Assembly: GCA_949295645.1 (NCBI GenBank)
Contig: CASFLY010000153.1
Coordinates: forward strand, 1-54,931
Direction: 5' to 3'
DNA length: 54,931 bases
DNA from: an uncultured Bacteroidales bacterium
GTDB taxonomy: Bacteria; Bacteroidota; Bacteroidia; Bacteroidales; UBA932
Shown one piece after another: positions 3,006 through 54,785 of this stretch; position 1 is the stretch's first letter, and each line of letters begins with the position of its first letter. The notes beneath the pieces were generated by a model. It saw nothing but the letters and a program-made list of their open reading frames with translations, did no database searches and had not been told where the DNA came from. The position numbers and the translations under genes were made by a program.

Positions 3006-3023
3006 AATTCTGCCGATAAAATA

Positions 3024-22773: not shown

Positions 22774-22896
22774 TTCTTACAGTCGTTTCAGATTCGTCTT
22801 GTTCCGGGCATTTTCCCGGGTCATTCCGGATGTTCCTTTCCGCACTGTCCGGATGCAGCTTCCCGTGTCATTCCGGACACGGCCGGAAATCCGTTT
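22774..22896. other. mraY-murE gap with degenerate GTCATTCCGGA copies
   Basis: This 123-base gap has no gene. GTCATTCCGGA occurs at 22820 and 22867 with a weaker copy near 22846, resembling the repeats that fill the ftsA-ftsQ and murE-ftsI gaps. No promoter box or terminator is evident. Confidence 0.4.
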
Positions 22897-24366: not shown

Positions 24367-24385
24367 ATATCTTCTTTTCCTTTAT

Positions 24386-24424
24386 TGTCATCCCGAGCGC
24401 AGCGCAGCGAAGTCGAGGGATCTG
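24386..24424 (+). repeat. Dispersed intergenic repeat, GTCATCCCGAG half, between murE and ftsI
   Basis: TGTCATCCCGAGCGCAGCG is followed by AAGTCGAGGGATCT, with an internal short duplication of GCGCA. It matches the right half of the 39335-39418 element and the end of the 25-bp array. The rest of the 157-base gap (to 24523) has short CATCCTCC and CGCCGGCC repeats and no gene. Confidence 0.6.
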
Positions 24425-24523
24425 CCCCCATCATCGTCCTCCCGTTTCCATCCTCCTCCAGCGCATCCGCCGGCCCCGCCCTCTCATTTCCATCCTCCGC
24501 CGGCCCTGCCGCCCTCATTGTTT

Positions 24524-37416: not shown

Positions 37417-39198
37417 TTACTCGACAAATGCCAGGATTTCGCCTTTTGCCACGAAATCACCCTGCTTGCAGCAGACCGCCACTATCTTTCCGTCGCATAC
37501 AGGCACTACCTCCTCCATTCCATAGAATGTCTGGATATAGCTCATTGCCTTGCCTTCCTTTACTTCCGTGCCGACAACAGGTGCGGTAGAAGCGTCGTCC
37601 ACGTCGATCTGCCACAGCAGCTGGCCCTTGACCGGAGCCTGTACCGCCTTTGCATTCGGGAATTTTTCCGCGATTTTCCCGACGTCGTACTTAGGCACTT
37701 CCACCACCGGTCTTGTGATGATGATCGGGGCTCCGGCCTTTTCCTTCATGGCTTCGAGGTCTTTTCTGAACCGTTCTTTGGCTATGCCGCTCTTGTAGTC
37801 CCTGTACTGTCTTTCGTGCATTGCGAATTCGAAGAGCTCCTCGTCGTCCTCGCCATAGTCCCAGCCCTCTTCATCCATCATCTTGCGGAACTTGTCGAGC
37901 TCGTCAGGGAACGCATCCTGAGGGTTTCCGGTGTAGAATTCCAGACCCTTGTCCTTGGCCAGCTGCACGATTTCAGGAGCCAGTTCCCCTGGGAGCTTGC
38001 CCATCTTGCCGAGGATCATATTCCAGGTGTCCTTGTCGATGGTAGTCCACCTCGGCTGGCCTTTCAGGATGTTCATCAGATTCATCAGGGCAGTGTTCTT
38101 GACGTACTGGCTGAACGGTGTCACGAGAGGCGGATACCCGAGACGCGGCCATACATACTCCACTTCCTGGAACAGCATCACCATCAGGTTGTCGAGAGTC
38201 AGTTCCTCCTTGCCCTGGTTTCTGAGCGACGCGTTTATCGCTCCGTGGAAGCCTTTCAGGTCGGCCATCATAGAGCCCATCATCCCTCCTGGCAGGCCGC
38301 AGCCGACCAAAAGCGAACTCATGTGGGAGTTGTTCGGATCGATCCAGTACCCGAGGAATTCATCTATGAACTTCTGCGTCAGACGGCGCACTTCCATATA
38401 GGCATCCATATTCAGATCCTTGACTATGAAGCCGTCAGCCTTCATCATTTCCCGGATGGTGATGACATCCGGATGAACCTTTCCCCAGGACAGCGGTTCT
38501 ACTGCCACATCCAGATAGTCGGCTCCGGCGCGTGCCACTTCAAGCATGGAAGCCGGCGAGAACCCTGGTCCGCAATGACCGTGGTACTGGACCTTGATGT
38601 GCGGGTATTTCGTCTTGATCGACCTGGTCAGCTGCCCGAGCATGGTCGGACGGCCGATGCCGGCCATATCCTTGAGACAGATTTCGTCGCAGCCGTATCC
38701 TACCACCTTGTCCACTATGTCCATATAATATTCTACCGTATGGATAGGGGAGTTCGTGATCGACAGGGCCACCTGCGAAATCATTCCGCCTTTCTTGGCA
38801 TATTCTACCGAAAGCCTGAGGTTCCTGTGGTCGTTCAGCCCGCAGAAAGACCTGGAGATATTCGTGCCCTGCTTGCATTTCACCTTATACATAAGCTCCC
38901 TTACGTCAGCAGGTACAGGATTCATCCTCAAGGCATTGAGCCCTCTTTCGAGCATGTGCGTCCGGATGCCGGCCTTGTTGAACGGAGCCGTCCATTCGCG
39001 TACCGCCCTGTTGGGATTTTCACCGAAAAGCAGATTTACCTGTTCGAATGCGCCGCCATTGGTCTCTACCCTGTCGAAGCATCCCATACCGATGATGGCA
39101 GGAGCCACTTCCTTGAGCTGGCTTACCGTCGGGACATATTTCCCGGACGACTGCCACATATCCCTGTAAACTAAAGAAAACTTGATTTCTCTTTTCAT
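37417..39198 (-). CDS. Pyruvate carboxylase subunit B / oxaloacetate decarboxylase alpha-like carboxyltransferase
   Basis: The 593-residue cytoplasmic protein has the HMGL-like carboxyltransferase barrel: FSLVYRDMWQSSGK with the metal Asp at 13, ICLKDMAGIGRP with the conserved Lys, and VQYHGHCGPGFSPA with the two metal His. A PYC/OADA domain follows and a biotinyl/lipoyl-like domain ends the protein. Where biotin carriers have EAMKM the sequence is IQTFYGMEEV, so no lysine is available for biotin; a separate carrier protein is implied. Which reaction it performs (carboxylation or decarboxylation) is not settled, as no partner subunits are adjacent. Confidence 0.87.
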   Translation of the reverse strand: MKREIKFSLVYRDMWQSSGKYVPTVSQLKEVAPAIIGMGCFDRVETNGGAFEQVNLLFGENPNRAVREWTAPFNKAGIRTHMLERGLNALRMNPVPADVRELMYKVKCKQGTNISRSFCGLNDHRNLRLSVEYAKKGGMISQVALSITNSPIHTVEYYMDIVDKVVGYGCDEICLKDMAGIGRPTMLGQLTRSIKTKYPHIKVQYHGHCGPGFSPASMLEVARAGADYLDVAVEPLSWGKVHPDVITIREMMKADGFIVKDLNMDAYMEVRRLTQKFIDEFLGYWIDPNNSHMSSLLVGCGLPGGMMGSMMADLKGFHGAINASLRNQGKEELTLDNLMVMLFQEVEYVWPRLGYPPLVTPFSQYVKNTALMNLMNILKGQPRWTTIDKDTWNMILGKMGKLPGELAPEIVQLAKDKGLEFYTGNPQDAFPDELDKFRKMMDEEGWDYGEDDEELFEFAMHERQYRDYKSGIAKERFRKDLEAMKEKAGAPIIITRPVVEVPKYDVGKIAEKFPNAKAVQAPVKGQLLWQIDVDDASTAPVVGTEVKEGKAMSYIQTFYGMEEVVPVCDGKIVAVCCKQGDFVAKGEILAFVE

Positions 39199-39286
39199 AT
39201 CAAAATGTTTTGTTCATTTCTGCCGCCGGCCGTTTTGCCGGCCATACATACTTGATATGGCCGGTCCATCCGGCCGTTGAATCCTG

Positions 39287-39294
39287 CAAAGATA
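39287..39294 (-). promoter_or_regulatory. -7 box of the carboxyltransferase gene
   Basis: TATCTTTG on the minus strand, 88 bases before the ATG. The nearest TTTG upstream is 23 bases away, slightly beyond the usual spacing. The leader contains two GC-rich hairpins. Confidence 0.5.
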
Positions 39295-39334
39295 CGTAAA
39301 AATTTTATGACTATCCGCAAAAATACCCCTATAC

Positions 39335-39418
39335 TGTCATTTCGACCGGAGGGCATAGCCCGGAGTGGAGAAATCTGTATTTGAGATAACAGATCCCTCG
39401 ACTACGCTCGGGATGACA
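39335..39418 (+). repeat. Dispersed repeat, full two-part copy (84 bp)
   Basis: The left part is TGTCATTTCGACCGGAG with GGAGTGGAGAAATCT; the right part is AGATCCCTCGACTACGCTCG followed by GGATGACA. The outer ends TGTCAT and ATGACA are inverted. Halves of this unit occur at 5448, 15251, 24386 and 35511. Confidence 0.7.
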
Positions 39419-39718
39419 TTAAGGATGACATCAAGGGATACTTTTGCAGATAGACGCAGATAGACAATTTATATTTAGATACGGAATATGGATAGATGCT
39501 GATAAAGGTCAAAAAAACAAGGTGTTTGCGCAAAAAATTCAGAAAGTTGTGCACAAATGTCGCATATTTTCAGAAATTTCTTTTGCATTTCTGAGGTTTT
39601 GCCGGATTTTAATGAATACCTTTATCGAATATCCGCGTCTTACGGACGGAAACAACACTGAAAAGAAACCGGAACTTATAACATAATTATATTATAACCA
39701 ACAGCTAATCAAAGTTTT

Positions 39719-42700
39719 ATGAAAAAGACGCTTGTATTTGTCCTGCTGTTGTTCTGTGTCGCCGCAGCTGCTTCGGCCCAGAATACCGTGACAGGTACGG
39801 TGACAGACCGGAACGGGGAGCCGCTTGTAGGCGTAGCCGTGACCCTGGTCGGAAGCCGGACGCCGGTAGGAACAACGACAGATCTGGACGGGCACTACAC
39901 CTTGAGTGTCCCTGAAAATGCCGTGCTGGAGTATTCTTCGCTCGGTTACCATTCCGTCTCGGTAAATACGACGGGGGGGGGGTGGAGTCTATAATGTAAC
40001 CCTTGAAGAAGACAACGAGCTGCTCGAAGAAGTAGTCGTAGTCGGATTCGCCACTCAAAAGAAAGTCAATCTGACGGGAGCCGTCAGCACTCTCGACAAC
40101 GAAGCTCTCGAATCGGTTCCGGTCCACAATCCCGTATTGGCCCTCCAGGGCCAGATCCCGGGCCTTACCATTACCCAGAACAGCGGCCAGCTCTACAATA
40201 ACGGCCCTTCCGTGCAGCTCAGGGGTCTTGCTACCATCGGCGAAGGCTCTTCCGGCTCGGTTCTCGTCCTGATAGACGGGATGGAAGGGGATCTGACCAA
40301 TATCAATGCCCAGGACATCGAGAGCATTTCCGTCCTGAAAGACGCGGCAGCATCGTCCATCTACGGATCCCGGGCTCCGTTCGGAGTCATCCTCGTCACC
40401 ACGAAATCCGGCAAAAAGGGCAAGGCCCAGGTCAACTACAACAACAATTTCCGGTTCAAGTCCCCTATCAACATGCCTGAAATGGCGGACTCGTATTCTT
40501 GGGCCCTCTATTTCAACGAGGCTTCCCACAATTCGGGAGATGGCGACATTGTCACCCCCGAGCGTCTCCAGAGGATAAGGGACTATATGGACGGAAAAAT
40601 TTCCTACACTACGGTTCCCGGCAGCAACGGGATGTGGATGTCGGCCTATGATTCAAACGGTTCCAATGACAATGTCGACTATTACGACGTTTTCTACAAC
40701 GACCTGACCACCGCACAGGAGCACAACCTGAGCATAAACGGGGGAACGGATACCGTTAACTACTATGTCTCTGCCAACTACATGGACGAGAAAGGTGTCC
40801 TGAACTGGGATCTGGACGGCCTGCAGAGGCTCAATATTTTCGGAAAGGTCAATGCGACTCCGTTCAAGTTCCTGAAAATAGGCTACAGCGCCCGTTATAT
40901 GAGGGAATGGTATCACCAGCCTACCTATATGACGGATAATATTTTCCAGAACATAGGCCGCTGGACCTGGCCCGTGTATCCTCTCTATGATCCTAACGGG
41001 AATCTGTTCAATGACCAGGTCCTCCAGATGGTGGAAGGAGGCCAGAGTACGGTGAACAACACCACATTCGTCCAGCAGTTCAATCTGGAGCTCACGCCTC
41101 TGCCTGGCTGGAGAATCGTGGGAGACATAAATTTCCGGCACAGGAACTACTTCAACAAGACCGTACAGCTCCCTGTCCATCAGGTGAGAGTGGACGGAGT
41201 CACCAAGGGGCAGGAATGGCCGACCGCCTCCCCGCGTTCGTATGTGGCCGAAGATGCCGGCAAGAACGAATTCCTGACGGTGAATGCCTACTCCGACTAC
41301 GAAAGGACATTTGCCGACGCCCATTATCTGAAGGTCATGGCGGGTTTCCAGATGGAAATGTACAACGACAATGACGTCTGGGCGAAAAAGGCAGGCATCA
41401 TCGTCCCGGACCTCCCGACCATCAACACTTCTTCCGGACTGGAAAACGGTGTCGCCATAACTCCCGAAGTGTCGGGCGGCGGCGGTTCCTGGAGAACGGT
41501 GGGTTTCTTCGGACGTATAAACTATAACTTCAAGGAAAGGTACCTTGCGGAGGTGAATCTCAGGTACGACGGCTCGTCCCGGTTCCGGATGGCCGACAGG
41601 TGGGGATTCTTCCCGTCATTCTCATTGGGATGGAACATAGCCAACGAACCTTTCTTCAAACCGGCAAAACAGTGGGTGGACATGCTCAAGGTCAGGGCTT
41701 CGTACGGTTCGCTCGGGAATCAGAATACTACTTCGTGGTATCCGACCTACCAGACCATGGGCTTTTCCAATGCGTCGGGAGACTGGCTTATCGACGGACA
41801 GAAACCGAACACAGCCTGGGCTCCGTCTCTCATAAGCATGCTGCTGACCTGGGAAAAGGTCCGTTCGTGGAATGCCGGTTTCGATTTTTCCGCATTCAAC
41901 GGCAGGCTGGCAGGCTCTTTCGAATATTTCGTAAGACAGACCATAGATATGGTAGGACCTGCGGACGAGCTTCCCGCCATTCTGGGGACATCCGTACCGT
42001 CTACGAACAATACCGACCTCCAGACGCAGGGTTGGGAACTCGAACTTTCCTGGAGGGATGTGGCCTTCGGTCAGTTGGACTACGGTATCCGTTTCGTCCT
42101 CTCGGATGCACAGGCCACCATCCTGAAGTATTCCAATCCTTCACGGACTTTAGACAAGAACTACGCAGGAAAGAAGGTCGGGGAAATATGGGGCTATGAG
42201 ACCGTCGGAATAGCCAAGTCGGACATCGAGATGCGTAACTATCTCGCAACCCTGCCGTATGGAGGGCAGAGTGCCATAGGAAGCGACTGGGGTGCAGGCG
42301 ATATCATGTACAGGGATGTGAACGGCGACGGGGCAGTGGACAGCGGGTCGAATACGATAGACGACCATGGAGACCTGAAGGTGATAGGAAACACTACGCC
42401 GAGATATAATTTCGGTATCGACCTGACCGCCGGATGGAAAGGCATAGACCTGAGGATATTCCTTCAGGGTGTCGGAAAACGGGACTATTATCAGGGCAGT
42501 ATGTATTTCTATGGTTCGACAGGAGGCAAGGACGAATACCAGTCGATGGTGCTGACCGGGCATCTTGACTATTTCAGGGCCGATGCGGACAACCCTCTCG
42601 GACAAAACCTCGACGCTTACTACCCGAAGCCGTATTTCAACACGGACAAGAACACCCGGTGCCAGACCAGATACCTCCAGAATGCAGCCTATTGCAGGCT

Positions 42701-42911
42701 CAAAAATGTCCAGATAGGCTATACCATCCCTCAGAAATATACTTCGAAAATCGGCATTTCGAACTTCAGGATATATCTCTCGGGTGAAAATCTGGCCACT
42801 TTCACGCAGATGACCGATCTGTTCGACCCGGAGACCATCGGCGCCAACTCCTCCGGTAACGTATATCCGTTGACCAGAACTTATTCGGTCGGCCTAAGTG
42901 TAACATTTTAA
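39719..42911 (+). pseudogene. susC: SusC-type TonB-dependent outer-membrane transporter, interrupted by a frameshift at a G10 run
   Basis: The gene would encode a 1063-residue outer-membrane barrel importing oligosaccharides with energy from TonB. Visible are a signal peptide (MKKTLVFVLLLFCVAAAASA), a carboxypeptidase-D-like N-terminal domain (VTGTVTDRNGEPLVGVAVTL), EEVVVVGFATQKK, the plug (LALQGQIPGLTI, VLVLIDGMEGDL, SVLKDAAASSIYGSRAPFGV) and a full barrel ending in VGLSVTF. Frame 1 runs from 39719 to a TAA at 39994; the rest is open in the next frame from at least 39984 to 42911. The switch is at a run of ten G (39973-39982). Nine G would give TTGGGGVYNVTLEED, the normal joint. I label it a pseudogene only for the sequenced state. 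Confidence 0.9.
39973..39982 (+). repeat. Poly-G tract (10 G) inside susC
   Basis: Ten consecutive G follow TACGAC in codons 85-88 of susC. No other homopolymer of this length lies in a coding sequence of the window. A change to nine or twelve G restores the reading frame. Confidence 0.9.
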
Positions 42912-42922
42912 TCGGATTCCTT

Positions 42923-44899
42923 ATGAAAAACAGAATATTGATCCTGTCGCTGGCGGCCGTGCTGATGTTTCCGTCCTGCAACGCTTTTCTGAATCTGGAG
43001 CCGGAAGCCGCCCTGTCTCCGGAGCAGTACCTGACCACGGAGGAGAATATCGGAGCGTATGCCACGAACCTGTACGGCATGCTTCCCAAACATGAACGCA
43101 GCACCTGGGGATACTGGAGGACGGATGCCAATACCGATGACATGGTAGCGCCCAATCCCAGCAATATCTATGCTCCTGGATACTGGAGGGTGGAACAGAC
43201 AGGCGGCTCCTACTCGTTTACGGACATCTATAACTGCAATTATTTCCTGGACTTCGTGATTCCTCTTTATGAGGCCGGAGAGATTACGGGAAATGACTCC
43301 AACATCCGCCATTACATCGGCGAAGTCTATTTCTTCAGGGCCTGGGCCTATTTCGAGAAACTGAAAGCGCTCGGGGACTTCCCGATAGTGGAAGAGCCGA
43401 TAGCCGATGACCTCGACCGGCTCGTGGCCGCAAGCAAACGTGCCCCGCGCAATGAAGTGGCCCGGTTCATCCTTGCTGACCTGGACAGGGCGCTGGAGTA
43501 CATGTCCGACACACCTCCTGTGGGCGGAACGAACAGGCTTGCCGATGACTGCGCACATCTTATGAAATCCCGTGTGGCTCTGTACGAAGGTACATGGGAG
43601 AAATATTTCAAAGGTACGGCCTTCGTTCCGAACGGCCCGGACTGGCCAGGTGCCGGGAAGGACTACAACTCGGGATACCAGTTCCCTTCCGGCAGTATCG
43701 AAGGGGAGATAGACTTTTTCCTGAAGACCTCTATGGAAGAGTCGAAAATCGTGGCGGACAAGTACAGCCTGACGACAAACACGGGTGTCTTCCAGAGCAG
43801 TGAGACTGCCGACTCGAACCCGTACTTCGACATGTTCGGCGCTACGGACATGAGCCTGTATCCGGAAGTCCTGCTCTGGAGAGACTATAACGTCTCTCTC
43901 GGAGTCTACAACTCCGTAGGGGAGTGGGCTTCGTCGTCCAACAACGGCTATGGGATCACCAAAAGCATGGTGGATGCCTTCGTGATGAGCAACGGCCAGC
44001 CATGGTATGCTTCCGGGAGCGGATATGCAGGTGACACCGATCTTATGAAAGTCACCCAAAACAGGGATACCCGGGCCGTGATATTCATAAAGAAGCCAGG
44101 CGACCTCAATCTTCATTCTCCCGGAGGACAGAATTCTGAGGAAGTGGAACCCTGGCCGGAGATAACTTCTTCCGGAGCCCAGAAATACATTACCGGCTAC
44201 GTTATCCGCAAGGGGCTGAACTTCAACGGTGCCTATGCGAGCGACAATTCCAGCGAGACCGGCCTGATCATCTTCAGGGCGGCAGAGGCCTATCTGAACT
44301 ACATCGAGGCCTGCTATGAACGCACCGAGGGATTGGATGCGGATGCGCAGAGGTACTGGAAAGCCATCCGTGACCGGGCTAAGGCCGGTGACTACAATAC
44401 CACCATCCGTGACACGGAAGTGGCTACGGAAGGCAAGACGGACTGGGGAGCCTACTCTGCCGGCCGGCTCGTGGACGCGACCCTGTACAACATCCGGAGA
44501 GAACGGCGTTGCGAACTGATGGCAGAAGGCTTCAGGGCTGCGGACATACACCGCTGGAGGGCCCTCGACCAGCTCATCGATGCGGACGAACCATACCACG
44601 TCCTGGGCGTGAACCTCTGGAGCGAACTCTACAGGAACGAGGAATTCCTCGAAGGCAACCCTGCCGGGCTCATCGAGGGTGAAAACGTATCTCCGCGGAG
44701 TTTCAGCAATTACCTGGCCCCGTACCACATCATGACCAACAACCGTGTCTACAACGGCTACAACTGGAGGATGGCGCATTATCTCGACCCTATTGCGGTG
44801 CAGCACTTCCTTATCACGGGAGACGGAGACGTAAACGCCTCGCCTCTCTATCAGAATCCGGGCTGGCCGGTACAGGCGGGCCTCGGCGCACAGAACTGA
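42923..44899 (+). CDS. susD: SusD-like glycan-binding lipoprotein
   Basis: The 658-residue lipoprotein (signal with PSC lipobox, Cys about residue 19) starts CNAFLNLEPEAALSPEQYLTTEEN, the usual SusD opening, and has TPR-like helices, for example IGEVYFFRAWAYFEKLKALGDFPIVEEP, and a C-terminal IRRERRCELMAEGFRAADIHRW. It forms the lid of the SusC barrel at the cell surface and binds the glycan. It begins 12 bases after susC. It is longer than SusD of starch (551), in keeping with a different ligand. Confidence 0.95.
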   Translation: MKNRILILSLAAVLMFPSCNAFLNLEPEAALSPEQYLTTEENIGAYATNLYGMLPKHERSTWGYWRTDANTDDMVAPNPSNIYAPGYWRVEQTGGSYSFTDIYNCNYFLDFVIPLYEAGEITGNDSNIRHYIGEVYFFRAWAYFEKLKALGDFPIVEEPIADDLDRLVAASKRAPRNEVARFILADLDRALEYMSDTPPVGGTNRLADDCAHLMKSRVALYEGTWEKYFKGTAFVPNGPDWPGAGKDYNSGYQFPSGSIEGEIDFFLKTSMEESKIVADKYSLTTNTGVFQSSETADSNPYFDMFGATDMSLYPEVLLWRDYNVSLGVYNSVGEWASSSNNGYGITKSMVDAFVMSNGQPWYASGSGYAGDTDLMKVTQNRDTRAVIFIKKPGDLNLHSPGGQNSEEVEPWPEITSSGAQKYITGYVIRKGLNFNGAYASDNSSETGLIIFRAAEAYLNYIEACYERTEGLDADAQRYWKAIRDRAKAGDYNTTIRDTEVATEGKTDWGAYSAGRLVDATLYNIRRERRCELMAEGFRAADIHRWRALDQLIDADEPYHVLGVNLWSELYRNEEFLEGNPAGLIEGENVSPRSFSNYLAPYHIMTNNRVYNGYNWRMAHYLDPIAVQHFLITGDGDVNASPLYQNPGWPVQAGLGAQN

Positions 44900-44912: not shown

Positions 44913-46223
44913 ATGAAAAACAAGACATATCATACACTGCTGGCTCTGGCCGCAGTCTTTGCAGCTTCGTGCTCCAAGACCGGAGAGCCTTACATAAATG
45001 TCCCTCAGGACAGGTATAATGTGGAGGCCGTGTACACGGAACTGAACATTCCCGTGGAATGCAATATGAACTCCACCGCCTGTGTCAGATACGACGGCGA
45101 CGTGTCCGGCTGGATCCAGCTTCTCCCGTCGCTTCTGTCGGGAAACGGGGTTTATTCACTGTGGATAAGCGAAAATCCGGACGAAGAGGCATCCCGTTCC
45201 GCCACTCTCGTGATTACTGCCGGCTCCGCTGTCAGGGAAGTGGAGATAGAGCAGAACCTGCTCACTTCCATACGCATCTCGCCTTCATCGCTGGCCACCA
45301 CGACTTCGTCGGGAACTTATCCGGTGAGGGTGGTCTCGAATGGAGAATGGACCCTGAAGCAGGATTCCGATACGGAAGGCTGGCTGACCGTAGACAAGGT
45401 TTCCGGCACCGGAAATGCGACTGTGAATTTCACCTTTGCCGCTTTGGCCGATGACAGCGAAATGTATTCCGGAACGGTGAAGTTCGTAACCGGTTCCGAC
45501 GAGGTGGAGCTGCCGGTGCAGCACGGCTATGCCCAGCAGATAGGAGACTATGTCTGGGCCAAGGCCAACGTAGGGGAGCCGGGGATGTTCGCGGACGCTC
45601 CCGACGATCCGGGAATGCTCTACCAGTACGATTCGAAGGTAGCCTGGACAAATGCCTATCCTGCTGCGACAGCACCGGCTCCGGAAGGCATGCCTTTAGG
45701 AGCAGCCACAGGACCTGAGCAGTGGACGGACGAGAACAACCCTTGTCCGGACGGCTGGCGTGTGCCGACAAAGGACGAACTGGATGCCCTCGTAGGAACA
45801 AGGGCCGATGGTGTGAAGATAGGCTGGGCAGAGCCGGAGACGAGCGGTTTCAGCATACCGGGCGCCGTCCTGGGCCTGTCCCGCGAAACCGGCAGGACTG
45901 CCACCGCTGCAGATATGAAAGGCGGTATTTTCCTGCCATGTTCGGGGAACCGCAAGTGGGACACCGGTGCATACCAGAACCCGCAGAATGCAACGATGAC
46001 TACGGCGACAAGCCTGATGTCCGGTTCTGAGCAGTGCAGATACCTTATGTATTGCTCTACGGATGAGACGGATGATCTTAGCAAACTCCGTCTTCCTTCC
46101 GACAACTGGGGTTGGGAACGTCTCCGCGGAGCCTGGCCGGTAAGGTGCATAAAGGATGACAGGGTTTCATACGGCCCGGTGGATCTGCCGATCCCGGACT
46201 ATGATGAAGGCCAGTCGTATTAA
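44913..46223 (+). CDS. Surface lipoprotein with BACON-like and FISUMP-like domains
   Basis: The 436-residue product has a lipoprotein signal (AASCSK), two BACON-like Ig domains (about residues 25-115 and 120-205, e.g. ISPSSLATTTSSGTYPVRVVSNGEWTLKQD) and a C-terminal module starting DYVWAKANVGEPGMF and containing CPDGWRVPTKDELDALVGT, PCSGNRKW and WPVRCIKD, features of the Fibrobacter succinogenes major paralogous (FISUMP) domain. A tail PIPDYDEGQSY follows. Position after susD suggests a surface glycan-binding role. Binding is inferred, not shown. Confidence 0.8.
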   Translation: MKNKTYHTLLALAAVFAASCSKTGEPYINVPQDRYNVEAVYTELNIPVECNMNSTACVRYDGDVSGWIQLLPSLLSGNGVYSLWISENPDEEASRSATLVITAGSAVREVEIEQNLLTSIRISPSSLATTTSSGTYPVRVVSNGEWTLKQDSDTEGWLTVDKVSGTGNATVNFTFAALADDSEMYSGTVKFVTGSDEVELPVQHGYAQQIGDYVWAKANVGEPGMFADAPDDPGMLYQYDSKVAWTNAYPAATAPAPEGMPLGAATGPEQWTDENNPCPDGWRVPTKDELDALVGTRADGVKIGWAEPETSGFSIPGAVLGLSRETGRTATAADMKGGIFLPCSGNRKWDTGAYQNPQNATMTTATSLMSGSEQCRYLMYCSTDETDDLSKLRLPSDNWGWERLRGAWPVRCIKDDRVSYGPVDLPIPDYDEGQSY

Positions 46224-46238
46224 AAGGAGGAACAGAAT

Positions 46239-48029
46239 ATGAAAAAGACAATATTTTTAATGGCAGCCGCCGCTGCAGTCTCAGCGGCCTGCTCCGTAGA
46301 AAATATCGGATCGCCCGCAGTACAGGAAGGGGAACCGTTTTCCATTCGGGCTTCCCTCCTTTCCACAAGGACGACCCTCGACACCGACGGGTACAAGGTT
46401 ACCTGGGATGAAGACGACGTCCTGTCCGTCATCGCCAGATATGATGACGGTACCGTACGGCACTACAAGTTCGAAAAGGAGGACGGAAACGCTTTCTCCT
46501 GCCGGAAAGTGCTGGAGCCGGAGCGGATTACGGTCTTGAATGTCTTCTATCCGTACGATGAGAACAATTATGCTTTGGACGGAGACTATGGCCGGGCGGG
46601 GCTGGCTTTCGGAATGGGACAGAATCAGTCGCTTGCGGATGATGCGGCCCATATCGACGGCCCTCTTTACGGCTATGCCGAGGTTTCCGGAGGCAGCGTG
46701 CCGGACATAAGCATTCATCATGCATCCGCACTGATGGATGTGCAGGTCGTGAACTCGGCTCCTGCGGACATTACCGTGACGGAAGTCCGGCTTTCCACTT
46801 CCGCTCCGGATCTGTACCTGCAGGGCTGGGCGAAGATAAACCCCCGGACCGGGGAGTTGCAGACTACCGGAGGTTATACGGAAGTGGCGCTGACGGTTGA
46901 CAAGGCGACGGTAGGGGCCGGTCAGACAGGGCATTTCTACATTACCTCGCTTCCGTTCAGTCTGAATGCAGGAGACACTTTCACGGTGACGGTCACGGCA
47001 AACGGCAGGAAGTATGATTTCGAGAAGACAGTGGAATCGGCGGAGAAGGGAATATTCGCCGCCGGCAAGGTGCATCATCTGACTGCGCAGTTCAACGAAG
47101 TCGAAGAGGTCGACCCGGACCTGAAGGTGGAAATCTCCACTTCATACATCGCCCCGACGGCAGCGACAGGGGAATACGATGTGGAAGTGACATCCACGGG
47201 GGAATGGAGCGTGATTCAGGACGAGGCCACGAAGGACTGGCTCACGGTAGAACCCGCTTCCGGTACGGGAAACGGTACGGTCAAGGTAAGTCTTGGCGCC
47301 CTTGGCGGGGACAGCGACGTTCGGACTGCTTCCCTTACATTCAGGGCAGGCCTGAGTGAGGCTGTCCTGACCGTACAGCACGGCTATGCGCAGCGGATAG
47401 GGGATCTCGTCTGGGCCAAGGCCAATGTGGCGGAGCCCGGAATGTTCGCAGAGTCTCCGGACGAGACGGGACTTCTGTACCAGTATGCTTCCAGGACAGG
47501 ATGGCCGAACGGATACCCTGATGCCGAACAGTCCGGCTCGGGGCCTGCAGGTTACCCGACAGGAGAGAGAAACACGCCTTCTGTCTGGTCTTCTGAAAAT
47601 GACCCTTGCCCTGAAGGGTGGAGGGTGCCTTTTGCAGACGAGATGACGGCTTTGGTCGGAACGGACTTGCAGACTAAATTCTCCTGGAAAGAGCCTGCGG
47701 CAAGCGGGTTCGGAATCCCGGGAGTGATGTGCGGACCTGATAAAAGCACCGCCTCCTCTGCGTCCAGGACCGATATGGCCGGCTGCGTCTTCGTACCATG
47801 TTCCGGAAACCGCAGCTGGAAAAACGGCCTGTACCAGAATCCCGGTCATGTGACGATGACGACAGCCACTTACAAGAGCAGCAATGGCGGGAACGCCTAC
47901 GCCTATGTAGTGAAAATCATAGGCAGCGACACCAATTTTGCCCTGCCTTCGTCCCCTGAGGACAAATGGGGCTACGGGGAACTGAATATGGCCTATTCGG
48001 TCCGCTGCGTAGCCGATGTGACAGAATAA
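46239..48029 (+). CDS. Lipoprotein with fimbrillin-like, BACON-like and FISUMP-like domains
   Basis: The 596-residue paralogue has a lipoprotein signal (VSAACS), an N-terminal fimbrillin-like part of about 280 residues (TTLDTDGYKVTWDEDDVLSVIA, VFYPYD, GQTGHFYITSLPF), one BACON-like domain (ISTSYIAPTAATGEYDVEVTSTGEWSV) and a FISUMP-like C-terminus (DLVWAKANVAEPGMF, CPEGWRVPFADEMTALVGT, SVRCVAD). The C-terminal half repeats that of the preceding gene. A clear AGGAGG precedes the ATG by 9 bases, unusual for this phylum. Probable surface exposure is inferred from the lipobox and the PUL context. Confidence 0.8.
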   Translation: MKKTIFLMAAAAAVSAACSVENIGSPAVQEGEPFSIRASLLSTRTTLDTDGYKVTWDEDDVLSVIARYDDGTVRHYKFEKEDGNAFSCRKVLEPERITVLNVFYPYDENNYALDGDYGRAGLAFGMGQNQSLADDAAHIDGPLYGYAEVSGGSVPDISIHHASALMDVQVVNSAPADITVTEVRLSTSAPDLYLQGWAKINPRTGELQTTGGYTEVALTVDKATVGAGQTGHFYITSLPFSLNAGDTFTVTVTANGRKYDFEKTVESAEKGIFAAGKVHHLTAQFNEVEEVDPDLKVEISTSYIAPTAATGEYDVEVTSTGEWSVIQDEATKDWLTVEPASGTGNGTVKVSLGALGGDSDVRTASLTFRAGLSEAVLTVQHGYAQRIGDLVWAKANVAEPGMFAESPDETGLLYQYASRTGWPNGYPDAEQSGSGPAGYPTGERNTPSVWSSENDPCPEGWRVPFADEMTALVGTDLQTKFSWKEPAASGFGIPGVMCGPDKSTASSASRTDMAGCVFVPCSGNRSWKNGLYQNPGHVTMTTATYKSSNGGNAYAYVVKIIGSDTNFALPSSPEDKWGYGELNMAYSVRCVADVTE

Positions 48030-48222: not shown

Positions 48223-49155
48223 ATGAAAAAAATAATTTTTATATTGGCAGCCGTCGCTGCAATATCAGCCTCATGTTCATCCATAGAGGATAACGGAAAG
48301 CCGGACAGCACTCCCGATGAAGGTATTTTCACGATTTCTGCCGTGATTCCGCAGGAGGATCTTTCAGGAGTTCCGGGCAAAACGACTGTGGACGCAGAAA
48401 ACGGTTACAAGGTGTCCTGGGATGACGAAGACGCCCTGAGCGTCATCGCGGAATATTCCGACGGCACCTACAAGGCATACAGGTTCGTAAGACAGGAAGG
48501 CGATACTTTCGTATGCGATAACGGGAATATCGACACACAGGACATTACTGCTGTCAATGTGGTCTATCCGTATGACAGCAAGAACCAGACTATGGGAGCG
48601 CCGGTTAACGCACAGGAAGATTATAATGGAGTCCTGTACTGCAATGCAGGGCTTCCCGTGAATACGGGAGACTTGTCTAAGCAGGCCGCGACAGACGACA
48701 TCTCCCACATTGACGGCCTCCTTTGCGGATATTCTGCCGTGAGCGGGAATGCTGCCGCAGTGACGATGAAGCATGCGACTACGCTGTTCGATGTCGCGGT
48801 GGAAAACGCAGGAGCGACGGACGTAACCATTACCGAGGTCAGAATGGTTCTCAATACGGGCTTCAATCTGGTAGGCTGGTTCCAGATAGCGCCTGAAACT
48901 GCCTCTCTTTGGGGCACGTCCGGCTACAAGGAACCGTCCATAACCGTTACTGACGGCACTCTCGCGGCAGGGGAGACCGGACATTTCTATATGTCTTCCA
49001 TCCCTTTCAAGATGTCCGCGAATCTGCCGCTGAGCATCAAGGTGACGACTTCTGACGGCCAGGCCTATACGGTGGACAAAACCCAGGCTGCCGACAAGGA
49101 TTTCCTGGCAGGAAATGTGAACCATATCACGGGAATAGTGATAAATAACGAATAA
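48223..49155 (+). CDS. Fimbrillin-like lipoprotein
   Basis: The 310-residue lipoprotein (signal ending ISASCS) aligns by eye along its length with the N-terminal half of the preceding large paralogue: TTVDAENGYKVSWDDEDALSVIAEYSDGT, NVVYPYDSKN, DISHIDGLLCGYSAVSG, GETGHFYMSSIPFK and GNVNHITGI. It lacks BACON and FISUMP parts. It may be a surface adhesin or glycan-binding protein. A four-codon frame (ATGAAAACGAAATGA) overlaps its start, which could couple translation. Confidence 0.8.
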   Translation: MKKIIFILAAVAAISASCSSIEDNGKPDSTPDEGIFTISAVIPQEDLSGVPGKTTVDAENGYKVSWDDEDALSVIAEYSDGTYKAYRFVRQEGDTFVCDNGNIDTQDITAVNVVYPYDSKNQTMGAPVNAQEDYNGVLYCNAGLPVNTGDLSKQAATDDISHIDGLLCGYSAVSGNAAAVTMKHATTLFDVAVENAGATDVTITEVRMVLNTGFNLVGWFQIAPETASLWGTSGYKEPSITVTDGTLAAGETGHFYMSSIPFKMSANLPLSIKVTTSDGQAYTVDKTQAADKDFLAGNVNHITGIVINNE

Positions 49156-49176: not shown

Positions 49177-50685
49177 ATGAGACATCCGATACTTTTTACA
49201 GCCGTTTCAGCCCTCGCCTTATGGGCCTGCTCCCAATCGGGTGCGGACGTGAAGCCGCAGGAGCCTGTGCTTCCGCAGATCACGGTCAGCGAGCTGAAGA
49301 CTGAAAACGGAAAGACATACGTGGAAGTGGACGGGACTCCGTTTCCGTTCATGGGTGCGCAGATCAGGCTCGACGCCCTGATAAACTGCGAGAACAAACC
49401 TGTTTCCGCAATCGAGCCGTATTTTCAGAAAGCAGTGGAGCTCGGCGTGAACTGTGTGCAAGTGCCGGTCTGCTGGAGATGGATAGAGCCGACAGAGGGA
49501 AACTATGACTGGAGCATAGTGGACGCCCTGCTCGGGTACTGCATCGAATATGACCTGAAAATGGAACTTCTATGGTTCAGTACCAATATGATAGGTGATT
49601 CGTTCACTTATTTCCTTCCAAGACATATCATTTCCGAACCGTCTATCCGTCTGTGGAGAAGCAATGAAGGCTATTCCCGCCCCGAATACGGCTACACATA
49701 CGCCCTCATCCTCGATGCCGACTGGCTTCTCGAACGCGAGACGGCTGCTGTCACGGCACTGTTCAACCATATCCGTTACTGGGATTCGAACCACGGCGAC
49801 AGCCATCCGGTGATTACCTGTCAGATTCACAACGAGCCTGACGGCTTCGTCCGCTGGAGGTATGAGCAGGACGGCTTTACCTGGCGTGACGGCTCCAGTC
49901 TGTCCCGGGAAAGGGCCTGGGAAATGGTGCTCAACTCTTTAGATGCAGTGGGCAAGGCCGTGCAGAACAGTTCCTACAAGGTGCTGACCAGGACAAACCA
50001 TATCAAGGCGGACAATGTCTCGTCACCTTTGGACTGGGGCGAGGAGACGGTTTCTCCCAGGACCGTTTTCGATCTTGAAGGCATAGACTTCGTGTCCGTC
50101 GATGCTTACAGACAGACCGTGTCCGACATCCGTAAAGAGGTGGAGGCCTATGCTTCCATCGAGGGCAACTATGCTTTGGTCGGAGAAAACAAGGGCAATT
50201 ACACCCACACTCCGAGCCTTATCCTTGCAGCCTTTGCCGCCGGAGGCGGCTATGACATCTACGACCTGGCTACCAGCAGTGTTTTCATAACCAATTCCGG
50301 AGGTACGGATGATCCGGACCATGGCGTCTATACGTCAGATCTTCAGGAAAGGCCCGGATTTACCGAAGAGGTAAGGAAGATAGTCAAGGGCCTGACGGCG
50401 GCCGGAGCGGATCTTGCAGCGACCCGCAGTGCAGATTTCGCCGCTTTCAATATCTCACAGGACTCGCCGCAGGAGAATGTGACCTGGGAGCAGGCCTCTA
50501 CTGTCAGATGCAGGATCCGTTTCAGCACTGATGCCGGAGCCATCGGCTTTGTCCTGGACAGGGGCGACTATGTTCTGGTCTACGCTACTGATGCCGCTAC
50601 CTTTGAGTTGAAAACATCCGATAACCTTCACGAAGTCGTCACTATCGAGACCGAAGGCGGAAAACTTGAAAGAAGGGATATATGA
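49177..50685 (+). CDS. Putative glycoside hydrolase, clan GH-A type lipoprotein
   Basis: The 502-residue product has a lipoprotein signal (LALWACS) and a TIM-barrel hydrolase pattern like GH5/GH35/GH42: GAQIRLDAL, ELGVNCVQVPVCWRWIEPTEGNYDWS, then HNEPDG with the likely acid/base Glu near 220, and VGENKG with a likely nucleophile Glu near 337. A beta-rich C-terminal domain of about 110 residues follows; the overall form recalls DUF4978 proteins of Bacteroides. I cannot assign a GH family or substrate. Its stop overlaps the start of the lyase-GH3 gene (ATGA), so the two are coupled. Confidence 0.75.
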   Translation: MRHPILFTAVSALALWACSQSGADVKPQEPVLPQITVSELKTENGKTYVEVDGTPFPFMGAQIRLDALINCENKPVSAIEPYFQKAVELGVNCVQVPVCWRWIEPTEGNYDWSIVDALLGYCIEYDLKMELLWFSTNMIGDSFTYFLPRHIISEPSIRLWRSNEGYSRPEYGYTYALILDADWLLERETAAVTALFNHIRYWDSNHGDSHPVITCQIHNEPDGFVRWRYEQDGFTWRDGSSLSRERAWEMVLNSLDAVGKAVQNSSYKVLTRTNHIKADNVSSPLDWGEETVSPRTVFDLEGIDFVSVDAYRQTVSDIRKEVEAYASIEGNYALVGENKGNYTHTPSLILAAFAAGGGYDIYDLATSSVFITNSGGTDDPDHGVYTSDLQERPGFTEEVRKIVKGLTAAGADLAATRSADFAAFNISQDSPQENVTWEQASTVRCRIRFSTDAGAIGFVLDRGDYVLVYATDAATFELKTSDNLHEVVTIETEGGKLERRDI

Positions 50686-53600
50686 AACAGTGCTTTCTGA
50701 CAGCAATTATGCTGATTGCCGCATTGCTCCTGCCGTCAAAGACAGGGGCAATGTCTTTTGACATGATATCCGGCAACGCTCATCCGAGGCTTTTCCTGAA
50801 AGACGGCGACGTACAGGCGGTGCGTGAGGCCGTGAAAGAATATCCGGCTGTCGCACGCATGCATGAGACTGTGATGGAATGCGCGGATGCACTTTTTGAA
50901 AAAGCGCCTGTAACTAAGGAAATGGTCGGGATCAGGCTGCTCGAAACGAGCCGCGAGTCGCTGAAAAGGGTCTTTGCCCTGTCATACGCCTATAAGGTGA
51001 CCGGTGATACGCGCTATGCAGTGCGTGCCGAGAAAGAGATGCTTGCATGCTGCGCTTTCAGCGACTGGAATCCTTCGCATTTTCTGGACGTGGCGGAGAT
51101 GTCGATGTCTATGGCCATAGGTTACGACTGGCTTTACGACGTGCTTTCCGTGCAGACCCGGAGCATAGTCGGGGATGCGGTCTTCGAAAAGGCGTTCAAA
51201 CCCCTTGTCGGGGAGAACCAGCCCTGGTATGACTGGACATCCAACTGGAATTCCGTGTGCAATGCCGGCATGACTGCCGCAGCCGTCGCCTTTTATGACC
51301 TTGACCCGGAACTGTGCAGCGATATCATTTCCAGATCCCTGTCTTCCAACCCCAAGGCCCTGGATGTCTTTGCTCCGGACGGAGGCTACCCGGAGGGATA
51401 TATGTACTGGGGCTATGGTTCCGCATTTGAAATCCTGCTCATAGCTGCGCTGGAAAGCGCCTGCGGGACGGACTACGGCCTTTCCGCATATCCAGGCTTC
51501 CTGCAGTCCGGACGTTTCATGCAGGCCATGCTTACTCCGGGCGGAGGGTGCTACAATTTCAGCGACGCCTCTTACGGCTCGTCCATCGACCCTGCTCTCT
51601 TCTGGATTGCCGGACGTATTGACGACCCGTCCCTGCTGTACACTGACATCAGGAGTCTGGAAAGCGGCGGGACTCCGGAGTTTTCCCAGGAGCGGCTGCT
51701 CCCGTTCGCCATTATCTGCGCTTCGAGGATGGAGCTGGACGATGTCCCTCCTCCGGACAGCAACATCTGGTTCAGCAGGGGAGTAACGCCGGTCTTTACC
51801 TGGCGCTCAGGATGGGATTCGCCGGATGACGCATTTTTCGGAATCAAGGGCGGCACCCCTTCTTCCGGGCATTCCCACATGGACGGAGGTTCGTTCATAT
51901 ATGAAAGATACGGTGTCCGCTGGGCATTGGACCCGGGCATGCAGGATTACCATTCATTGGAAAAGCATGGGCTCGGCATCTGGAATACCGGGCAGGACAG
52001 CGACAGATGGAAAGTGTTCAGATATAACAATATGAGCCATAACACCCTGTCCATAAAGGATTCACTCCACAGGGCCTCCGCACGGGCGGAGATTATCGAC
52101 ACCTTCGCTTCCACGGACAGGACAGGAGCCGTCGTGGATATGTCTGCGCTGCTGCCTGCTTTCCGGAAAGTCGTCAGGACGGCCTGGACAGACCGGTGCT
52201 GCGACCTGCATATCCGGGATGTCTTGGAAACCGGAAATTCTTCAGAGCAGATAGTATGGATAATGAATACCGGGGCTGTGCCGGAAATCATGTCGGAGGA
52301 CACGGTCCTGCTTTCGTCCCGCGGGCATGAAATGTACCTTTCATTCGCCGCGTCATCTCCGTTCGAGTTGAAAATCCTGTCCAACGATCCCGTTACGGAG
52401 TACGATGCCCCGAATCCCGGCACCTGCAGGATCTGTCTCGAAATGACGGTGAATGCAGGAAGACAGGAAACGATAGAAGTGTCTCTGAAATCCGCAGAGG
52501 AATCCGGCAATGGCGGTATGTGCGGAAATGAAGCTGTATTCGGAAATGCTTTTGTGCCGCTGTACAAGAATGCTTCGGCACCCGTCGAGGACAGGGTGGA
52601 AGACCTCCTGTCGAGGATGACTCTCGAGGAAAAAGTCGGCCAGATGAACCAGTTCGTCGGGTTGGAGCATATCCGGAAAAACGAAGCTTCCCTGAGCGAG
52701 GAAGACCTGAAAAACAATACTGCCAATGCCTTTTATCCCGGGTTCAATGCGGATTCGGTGGCAGAATGGACCCGGCATGGACTCGTCGGTTCGTTCCTTC
52801 ACGTCCTGACGATAGAGGAGGCGAACTATCTCCAGTCTCTGGCTCTCGGAAGCCGTCTTGGGATTCCGATTCTTTTCGGGATAGATGCCATCCATGGCAA
52901 TGCCAATGCTCCGGACAACACTGTCTATCCGACCAATATCGGGCTTGCAAGCTCATTCGACACGGATCTTGCATACAGGATAGCCCGGGAGACCGCTGCG
53001 GAAATGCGAGCCATGAACATGCACTGGACCTTCAACCCGAACGTCGAGGTGGCGCGAGACCCTCGCTGGGGCAGGGTAGGCGAAACGTTCGGAGAAGATC
53101 CGTATTTGGTGTCCCGGATGGGGGTCGAGACCGTAAAGGGCTATCAGGGAGACTTTTCATCCGATGACGTCCTGGCCTGCATAAAGCATTTCGCGGGAGG
53201 AAGCCAGCCGGTAAACGGCACCAACGGTTCCCCTACCGACCTGTCCGAGAGGACGATAAGAGAGGTCTTCTTCCCTCCTTTCGAGGCCGGGGTTGAGGCC
53301 GGGGCGATGTCCCTGATGACTGCCCACAACGAACTGAACGGCATCCCGTGTCACTCCAACGAGTGGCTGATGCAGGATGTGGCCCGAGGAGAATGGGGTT
53401 TCAAGGGCTTCATCGTGAGCGACTGGATGGACATCGAGCATCTGTATGACCTCCACGCCACGGCGGAAAACCTGAAAGAGGCTTTTTACCAGAGCATTAT
53501 GGCCGGAATGGATATGCACATGCACGGAGTCTACTGGAACGAGTATGTATGCGGGCTCGTCCGTGAAGGGCGCATCCCGGAAAGCCGTATAGACGAATCG

Positions 53601-54785
53601 GTGCGCAGAATCCTTGACGTCAAGTTCCGTCTCGGCCTGTTCGAGCGGCCGTATGCCGACCCTGAAAAGACAATGGATGTCCGGCTTTGCGACGTCCACA
53701 GGCAGACTGCCCTGGAAGCCGCCCGGAAATCGATAGTTCTTCTGAAAAATGACGGTCTGCTTCCACTGTCTCCGGAAAAATACCGCAGGGTGCTTGTGAC
53801 GGGAATCAATGCCGATGACCACAATATCCTCGGGGACTGGAGCGCCGAGCAGAAACCGGAGAATGTCACGACGGTTCTCGAAGGTCTGAGACAGGTGTCG
53901 CCGGAGACGGATTTCGTTTTTGTCGACCAGGGCTGGAATCCTCAGACTATGTCCCGGCAGCAGGTGGACAAGGCTGCGCGTCTTGCACGCCGCTGCGACC
54001 TGAATATAGTAGTGGCAGGTGAGTATATGTTCCGGGGCCGGTGGAACGAGAAGACTTCCGGAGAGGATACCGACCGCTCGGACATAGATCTTGTCGGCCT
54101 TCAGAACGAGTTGATAGAGAAGGTCGCGGCATCCGGAAAGCCTACCGTACTCATCCTTATTTCAGGACGCCCTCTCGGCACGGAATGGGCGGCAGAACAT
54201 CTTCCTGCATTGTTGAATGCCTGGGAACCAGGGATGTACGGCGGCCAGGCAATAGCCGAAATCCTGTACGGAAAGGTGAACCCGTCCGCGAAACTCGCCG
54301 TGACGATCCCCCGTTCGGCCGGACAGATCCAGATGATCTACAACCATAAGCCGTCGCAGTATTTCCATCCTTATGTCGTGACCCCGAGTACTCCTCTGTA
54401 CCCGTTCGGCTACGGACTTTCCTATACCGACTACGAGTATTCCGACCTCAGTATGGACAAGACCGAAATCCCGGCGGACGGTTCCGTGAAAGTGACGATA
54501 AAGGTGAAGAATACAGGTGCCGTGGCCGGAGAAGAAATCGTCCAGCTGTATATCAGGGACCGCTTTTCCTCGGTGACACGCCCTGTGAAGGAACTGAAAG
54601 ACTTCGCAAGGGTGGCGCTGGCACCAGGCGAGACCAGGACCGTGGAATTCACCCTCACTCCGGACAAACTCATGTTCCTGGACAAGGACCTTGAACCAGT
54701 GGTCGAGCCAGGCGAGTTTGTCGTGATGGTCGGCAGCTCCTCCGCAGACGGGAACTTGCTGAAAGCCTCATTTTTTGTCCGGTGA
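50682..54785 (+). CDS. Fusion of heparinase II/III-like lyase and GH3 glycosidase
   Basis: The 1367-residue exported protein has a signal peptide (MKQCFLTAIMLIAALLLP). Residues about 25-615 form a heparinase II/III-like unit: HPRLFLKDGDVQAVREAV, an alpha-helical toroid with NWNSVCNAGM and GYPEGYMYWGYGSAFE, then GHSHMDGGSFIYE (His 397 and 399) and a beta-sandwich. From about 620 it is a complete GH3: PVEDRVEDLLSRMTLEEKVGQM, RWGRVGETFGEDPYLV, KHFAGGS, nucleophile Asp 914 in IVSDWMD, GEDTDRSDID with likely acid/base Glu 1128, and a C-terminal FnIII-like domain. No signal or stop lies at the junction, so the fusion is genuine. One chain would cleave by elimination and hydrolysis; the glycan is unknown. 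Confidence 0.88.
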   Translation: MKQCFLTAIMLIAALLLPSKTGAMSFDMISGNAHPRLFLKDGDVQAVREAVKEYPAVARMHETVMECADALFEKAPVTKEMVGIRLLETSRESLKRVFALSYAYKVTGDTRYAVRAEKEMLACCAFSDWNPSHFLDVAEMSMSMAIGYDWLYDVLSVQTRSIVGDAVFEKAFKPLVGENQPWYDWTSNWNSVCNAGMTAAAVAFYDLDPELCSDIISRSLSSNPKALDVFAPDGGYPEGYMYWGYGSAFEILLIAALESACGTDYGLSAYPGFLQSGRFMQAMLTPGGGCYNFSDASYGSSIDPALFWIAGRIDDPSLLYTDIRSLESGGTPEFSQERLLPFAIICASRMELDDVPPPDSNIWFSRGVTPVFTWRSGWDSPDDAFFGIKGGTPSSGHSHMDGGSFIYERYGVRWALDPGMQDYHSLEKHGLGIWNTGQDSDRWKVFRYNNMSHNTLSIKDSLHRASARAEIIDTFASTDRTGAVVDMSALLPAFRKVVRTAWTDRCCDLHIRDVLETGNSSEQIVWIMNTGAVPEIMSEDTVLLSSRGHEMYLSFAASSPFELKILSNDPVTEYDAPNPGTCRICLEMTVNAGRQETIEVSLKSAEESGNGGMCGNEAVFGNAFVPLYKNASAPVEDRVEDLLSRMTLEEKVGQMNQFVGLEHIRKNEASLSEEDLKNNTANAFYPGFNADSVAEWTRHGLVGSFLHVLTIEEANYLQSLALGSRLGIPILFGIDAIHGNANAPDNTVYPTNIGLASSFDTDLAYRIARETAAEMRAMNMHWTFNPNVEVARDPRWGRVGETFGEDPYLVSRMGVETVKGYQGDFSSDDVLACIKHFAGGSQPVNGTNGSPTDLSERTIREVFFPPFEAGVEAGAMSLMTAHNELNGIPCHSNEWLMQDVARGEWGFKGFIVSDWMDIEHLYDLHATAENLKEAFYQSIMAGMDMHMHGVYWNEYVCGLVREGRIPESRIDESVRRILDVKFRLGLFERPYADPEKTMDVRLCDVHRQTALEAARKSIVLLKNDGLLPLSPEKYRRVLVTGINADDHNILGDWSAEQKPENVTTVLEGLRQVSPETDFVFVDQGWNPQTMSRQQVDKAARLARRCDLNIVVAGEYMFRGRWNEKTSGEDTDRSDIDLVGLQNELIEKVAASGKPTVLILISGRPLGTEWAAEHLPALLNAWEPGMYGGQAIAEILYGKVNPSAKLAVTIPRSAGQIQMIYNHKPSQYFHPYVVTPSTPLYPFGYGLSYTDYEYSDLSMDKTEIPADGSVKVTIKVKNTGAVAGEEIVQLYIRDRFSSVTRPVKELKDFARVALAPGETRTVEFTLTPDKLMFLDKDLEPVVEPGEFVVMVGSSSADGNLLKASFFVR

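Follow-up and report, generated by a model that had tools for sequence, protein, structure and literature searches.

Slipped-strand mispairing is known to cause the poly-G phase variation of other systems. The haemoglobin receptors HmbR and HpuAB of Neisseria meningitidis are TonB-dependent. Glycan importers are surface-exposed and help set which substrates are open to a gut Bacteroidales cell. In Bacteroides fragilis, phase variation of SusC/SusD is reported to be driven by an invertase (Nakayama-Imaohji 2009). Passages of a study of Bifidobacterium breve report several lengths of a sortase-dependent pilus G-tract within one population, which shifted in mice (PMC9187656). Slippage-type switching of SusC would, judging from the comparisons below, be new for Bacteroidales, where known SusC switching is DNA inversion. 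No paper on it was found among the best-ranked literature matches of a search for which subscription papers and preprints lay mostly outside the scope, and mainly open-access searches for Cryptobacteroides with phase variation, and for polysaccharide utilization with slipped-strand, gave nothing. The words "slipped" and "homopolymer" are absent from a 2025 review of Bacteroidales (PMC12632263), and the Bacteroides passages of a 2025 review of phase variation (PMC11868660) give inversion or no mechanism; a paper on homopolymer tracts (PMC2831843) has no word beginning "Bacteroid", and one on frame transitions (PMC3711429) has neither SusC nor TonB. Slippage switching may already be known elsewhere in the phylum, because an Ornithobacterium paper (PMC13183296) mentions a putative phase-variation mechanism, of unstated kind, for surface genes.

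The window analysed here is a stretch of 54,931 nucleotides, the whole of contig C153 in a genome of 2,313,303 bases and 161 contigs (83.55% complete), whose SusC matches in other genomes place the host in or near Candidatus Cryptobacteroides (Bacteroidales). An earlier note on this DNA had proposed that its susC is put out of frame by a coding tract of ten G and is thereby a candidate phase-variable importer. Inspection of the sequence bore out the ten G at 39973-39982 on the + strand, in codons 85-88 counted from the ATG at 39719; this is the sole G/C run of at least six in the whole window. The intact SusC portions that the note had placed on both sides of the tract in adjacent frames were recovered as CarbopepD_reg_2 (PF13715, E 1.7e-11) before it and Plug (PF07715) with TIGR04056 after it. 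The post-tract part scores 804.5 bits against a TIGR04056 cut-off of 368.25, which, together with Plug and the adjoining susD (SusD_RagB at 42923), identifies the gene as a SusC/RagA TonB-linked outer-membrane transporter. In the assembled state the frame from the ATG meets a stop 9 nt past the tract and encodes a 91-aa stub. The features of the locus are as follows.

39719..39994, + strand: 5' part of susC, with start, signal-peptide-like stretch and CarboxypepD_reg-like domain, running via the G run to the stop (91-aa stub)
39973..39982, + strand: G10 homopolymer (proposed switch), located in the linker that connects the CarboxypepD_reg-like domain to the Plug/TonB-box part (where it stands with respect to the TonB box was assessed by eye)
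39966..42911, + strand: remainder of susC in the adjacent frame, 981 codons open, with Plug and TIGR04056 SusC
42923..44899, + strand: susD (SusD_RagB, E 2.5e-34)
44913..46223, + strand: BACON-domain PUL protein (Pfam)
46239..48029, + strand: second BACON-domain PUL protein (Pfam)
48223..49155, + strand: 310-aa PUL protein with no Pfam match
49177..50685, + strand: DUF4978/DUF4969 protein with a weak Glyco_hydro_42 match
50682..54785, + strand: heparinase II/III-like C-terminal and GH3 domains in a single frame

The remaining PUL genes, described as intact in the earlier note, are indeed each a single open frame; in the last of them, 1367 codons fuse a heparinase II/III-like C-terminal domain with a complete GH3 enzyme. 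Switching of the whole PUL by the susC tract can be put only conditionally, because SusC alone is truncated and the later genes retain their own open frames; without SusC the cell might be unable to use the glycan, and the PUL might perhaps not be induced either.

DNA inversion was considered as the susC switch and rejected on a search for inverted repeats: none fit for invertible-DNA switching were found around susC. The interval 38900-43400 holds seven weak pairs; just one of them lies entirely before susC, and it is a palindrome (39533-39570) that is imperfect and overlapping. A sigma-70-type scan of 39200-40100 returned four sites against 1.2 expected; it was set aside because promoters of Bacteroidetes differ from this consensus. 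The pattern TTTG-N19-22-TAnnTTTG has three matches in the window, none close to susC.

We consider it very probable that the G10 of the window is a contingency locus, at which slipped-strand mispairing would produce phase variation of the SusC importer as one of a set. During replication, mispairing would add a G to the run or remove one. One run length would give a continuous susC frame and thus the TonB-dependent importer; at other lengths translation would stop no more than a few codons from the run, leaving the 91-aa stub. A population would accordingly mix cells that make this importer (ON) with cells that do not (OFF), and the run would be one unit of a poly-G set spread over SusC genes and certain other surface or PUL-regulator genes; in one SusC family, where the run lies beside a promoter element, it would act on transcription. 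We infer slippage because the pattern matches what slipped-strand mispairing predicts; reversibility, switching within a clone, and any consequence for the uptake of glycans or for evasion of phages or antibodies are likewise putative.

A search of genome contigs with the post-tract part of SusC, which may have excluded the window's own record, gave 13 orthologue loci (L070-L082), with susD adjoining susC in all 13. Their hosts are Candidatus Cryptobacteroides merdigallinarum (L074), Candidatus Cryptobacteroides intestinipullorum (L079), a Capnocytophaga (L081, 46% identity) and, for the other ten, uncultured Bacteroidales; comparisons between species used one genome per species. Among the 14 copies made up by the window and these loci, two carry G10 and are out of frame, namely the window and L072, which comes from a separate MAG, and three carry G9 and are open (L070, L073, L080). 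The frame thus tracks tract length (G10 out of frame 2/2, G9 open 3/3). Two further open copies (L071, L079) have GGGAGGGGG at the tract site, about 37 nt before the start of the match, where it substitutes for a nine-G run with no change in length and would lock susC on. The run is cut to five or seven G in three open copies (L076, L077, L078) and absent from the site in four more, likewise open (L074, L075, L081, L082). Two pairs are not independent because of their DNA identity (98.8% for L073/L080, 99.1% for L071/L079). The post-tract proteins of L072 and L073 are 99.4% identical and the states differ, L072 being out of frame and L073 open.

In its own genome the tract belongs to 32 G runs of at least nine (23 G9 and 9 G10; none longer). 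From base composition alone, 20.9 runs of this size would be expected per genome, so that the number found (1.5-fold) is by itself weak evidence; we dropped it as the main argument, and the case is carried instead by where the runs lie, by their strand, by their lengths in orthologues and by how run lengths are distributed. Within 218,681 bases of this genome (the window plus L009-L039), G/C runs of length 5, 6, 7 and 8 number 112, 2, 0 and 0 against 301, 79, 21 and 5.5 predicted; these bases were picked around tracts, which inflates lengths 9-10 and does not affect the gap. A/T runs of length 6, 7 and 8 in the same bases number 108, 26 and 5. When the decay seen in these counts is extrapolated, the expected number of runs of at least nine in a genome is between 0.0001 and 5.7, according to which lengths enter the fit. 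Genome-wide there are 128 G7 windows, 105 of which stem from G9 or G10, leaving 23; shorter runs amount to about three G7 and ten G8, with ten G8 and two G7 among the matches listed. The drop at 7-8 followed by a second mode at 9-10 is not a chance-like distribution, and the run thereby exceeds the run-length distribution of the genome, as runs at contingency loci do. The codon GGG is not avoided, since it makes up 25% of Gly codons in 23 genes of the window. Poly-A9 runs in the genome number seven. In another genome (G018), G17 and G37 runs at the start of contig C57 (1-55) inflate the run count and are probably a sequencing artefact.

The placement of these runs is biased towards SusC genes. 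The genome has 48 TIGR04056 matches, 38 of them above the cut-off, and 12 of the 32 runs fall within one of the 48 matches or fewer than 300 nt upstream of it; in each of the 12 the G are on the coding strand. The expectation, taken for the SusC match plus 500 nt before it under a uniform background model, is 1.8 (P 8e-8); without the two runs on contigs C79 and C109 that are tied solely to sub-cut-off matches, the count is 10/32 (P 6.5e-6). The other 20 runs are not linked to SusC, and several are intergenic with no clear role. Four further genomes, chosen for run richness or orthologues so that their P values are not those of a random sample, gave 8/16 runs linked to SusC, all sense (G029, P 1e-6, assuming 40 SusC genes of 3,050 nt), 9/30 with eight sense (G063, P 2e-6), 6/32, all sense (G071, P 0.003), and 3/17, all sense (G067, P 0.03). 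The placement test covered three of the 12 orthologue-bearing genomes (G063, G067, G071); the run-rich G061, G064 and G072, which lie outside it, have 46, 21 and 86 run windows. Pooled over the five genomes, 38 of 127 runs are SusC-linked, 37 of the 38 on the coding strand. The bias is a property of some genomes and is not genus-wide, because in six further members of the genus 2/33 runs were near SusC among the matches listed, and 8 of 36 genomes of the genus have no G9 run at all. Genomes of other families, scored by eye, have SusC-linked runs in 1/10 (G043), 1/8 (G057) and 2/9 (G060). As a separate observation, a SusC match on contig C69 of G000 (22118-25309) has a TAG in its reading frame and lacks a G9 run; none of the other own matches above the cut-off (38 in all) has a stop of this kind.

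The coding SusC tracts occur in both states, 16 of 31 in frame and 15 out of frame, and each of the five genomes holds both. The states, called by eye from translations, are distributed as follows.

In frame (16): own genome L013, L016, L032, L033, L039; G071 L083, L084, L088; G063 L090, L093, L094, L095; G067 L099; G029 L100, L103, L104
Out of frame (15): own genome, the window, L011, L015, L021, L037; G071 L085, L087; G063 L091, L092, L096; G067 L097, L098; G029 L101, L105, L107

This count started from 38 loci, made up of the TonB receptor L030 and the 37 SusC-linked runs in sense orientation, the antisense run of G063 (contig C46) lying outside them. Seven were dropped: L022, which misses the SusC N-terminal part; L030, which is out of frame and below the SusC cut-off; and L029, L086, L089, L102 and L106, where the run is upstream of the gene. 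Two entries are loci of the orthologue set (L083 is L080; L096 is L072). As expected of placement that alters expression, 27 of the 31 tracts are in the 5' part of the gene and four are deeper (L021, L093, L104, L105); on visual inspection, the majority fall in the signal peptide or near the CarboxypepD_reg-like and STN-like parts, regions in which whole added residues should be tolerated. For runs in a signal peptide, an internal start could still yield protein without the export signal.

The same tract was also met at different lengths in related genomes, with frames to match, as the window susC and its orthologues also show. Identical 36-nt flanks on both sides and 86% identity over 749 nt link L013 (G9, in frame) with L092 (G10, out of frame); L095 (G9, in frame) and L087 (G10, out of frame) are 95.3% identical over 759 nt; and L016 (G10, in frame) and L091 (G11, out of frame) are 68% identical over 649 nt. 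These comparisons bear on an assembly or sequencing error, in which the true run length would differ and the gene would always be intact, the alternative that the earlier note itself had raised. The MAG is fragmented and homopolymers are error-prone; yet the run stands at the same position in other assemblies, a second MAG has an out-of-frame G10, and out-of-frame tracts sit beside in-frame ones in all five genomes. Error would not account for runs in the 5' regions of SusC genes on the coding strand, and a count wrong by one would still leave the run. On these comparisons we now regard error as unlikely.

Selection on the part of susC beyond the tract was estimated from dN/dS, computed for 12 orthologues (L081 was not computable). 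Values for the window copy are 0.048-0.078 against L070-L080 and 0.092 against L082, and they are rough, as dS exceeds 1 in 11 of the 12 comparisons; despite this, they show constraint, and the post-tract part is under purifying selection. A decaying gene, in which a one-off frameshift struck a susC already under loss, would explain why the assembled gene is out of frame. Such decay is slightly less probable even than an assembly error: these rough dN/dS values and 981 codons open with no other stop do not fit a pseudogene, the rest of the PUL is open, and a second species (L072) has lost the frame at this very site, whereas its near relative L073 is open. Among the findings that would tell against phase variation, the earlier note had named a fixed non-G sequence in all relatives and further disabling mutations in susC. 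Neither of these was seen; four of the 13 loci lack the run, and five more have it interrupted or shortened. Its candidate phase-variable susC is strongly supported by same-position runs that fit the frame, by the second out-of-frame G10 copy, by purifying selection, and by the bias of runs to the 5' part and coding strand of SusC genes.

In one SusC family the run precedes the gene and comprises 10 G in L029, 12 in L086, 11 in L089 and 9 in L102. In all four, TATATTTG follows 1-4 nt after the run and fits TAnnTTTG, which passages of PMC7366714 describe as the Bacteroides -7 element, with TTTG near -33. An exact TTTG stands 20-22 nt before TATATTTG in L086 and L102 and a CTTG in L089, with nothing clear in L029. 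By this arrangement the run would tune promoter spacing and so act on transcription. TAnnTTTG was absent just after the upstream runs L106, L108 and L109 and the intergenic runs of the own genome.

Long homopolymers can cause slippage of RNA polymerase or of the ribosome. Recoding of this kind, which would give some full-length SusC from the run and make DNA length matter little, is the least probable account: slippery runs are mentioned in parts of the paper on frame transitions (PMC3711429), but 12 of the 14 copies have a single frame, orthologues being open with G9 and four lacking the run, so that no conserved frame change of a programmed frameshift is kept, four upstream runs lie outside the coding frame, and recoding would add to a length change without replacing it.

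The reading as a slippage-switched set extends to other genes of the own genome, and the set of runs leans to surface and PUL functions without being pure. Three hybrid two-component regulators (L024, tract 3015-3023; L025, 3048-3056; L034, 3040-3048), with Reg_prop, HisKA, HATPase, receiver and AraC HTH domains, carry an in-frame G9, as does a CpsB/CapC-like capsule phosphatase gene (L023, 3001-3009); in the TonB receptor L030 the run is out of frame. In an ECF sigma factor (L036, contig C147), a G9 at 2996-3004 interrupts the frame where region 4 begins, after Sigma70_r2; the remainder of region 4, as judged by eye, likely lies in another frame, in a downstream piece with no Pfam match. An LRR protein (L018) has its likely lipoprotein start out of frame, as judged by eye, and three lipoprotein-like genes with runs have no Pfam match (L010, L020, L038). 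Intergenic runs stand beside ordinary genes, for example L012, L019, L026 and L027.

Two smaller observations concern individual loci. L009 (G tract, 2979-2987) and L017 (C tract, 2982-2991) contain small frames for similar peptides of about 60 aa, with the run on the coding strand, that precede a fimbrillin-like or SusE/F-like gene. L022 (contig C79) is a SusC-like gene without its N-terminal part, in which a G9 at 3008-3016 marks the junction with unrelated upstream sequence and a further stop lies inside the gene; the junction is either a genuine rearrangement or an assembly chimera.

Taken together, the runs suggest that G9 and G10 tracts in many sugar-importer genes probably switch these importers randomly between on and off. 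A wider reading, to which we give an even chance, is that the Candidatus Cryptobacteroides clade has a poly-G phasome over glycan uptake that replaces the Bacteroides invertase systems: about ten SusC per genome would switch independently by frame and one further family by promoter spacing, with runs also in PUL regulators (the three hybrid two-component systems and the ECF sigma factor), a TonB receptor and a capsule phosphatase. Were this so, ten independent two-state importers would allow about a thousand combinations per population, which would serve bet-hedging on diet and escape from phages or antibodies. Populations in which many importers switch by slippage in G runs would be mixtures of uptake states that are now annotated as broken genes. 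Run lengths can be read from existing metagenome reads, which would make switching, and its response to diet, phage and host, testable without culture.

Among known systems, the closest by gene and order is the inversion-driven SusC/SusD switching of B. fragilis: there the same protein family and order reportedly show on/off variation of the importer, by site-specific DNA inversion (Nakayama-Imaohji 2009), whereas here the G run is the variable element and no fitting inverted repeats were found around susC. By mechanism, the closest is the poly-G switch of meningococcal HmbR/HpuAB, which, as described in PMC3786947, are likewise outer-membrane nutrient receptors switched by the length of a coding poly-G; they serve iron acquisition in a pathogen, with switching measured in isolates, whereas the present genes are SusC glycan importers of uncultured gut Bacteroidales for which comparison suggests it. 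The promoter poly-G of N. meningitidis PorA, which alters expression according to passages of PMC3639595, is comparable to the class of L029, L086, L089 and L102, where the neighbouring element is a Bacteroides-type -7 motif and the effect on expression is putative. In scale, the set of runs resembles the poly-G phasome of Campylobacter, for which parts of PMC6321876 and PMC8355987 describe many coding and intergenic G runs per genome in surface genes; phylum and gene content differ, and switching is established there and deduced here. The closest system in a gut commensal is the sortase-dependent pilus G-tract of B. breve: as set out in part of PMC9187656, an intragenic G run joins two frames there as it does here, at few loci per genome, in pilus genes of an actinomycetote, whereas the runs described here lie in many importer genes.
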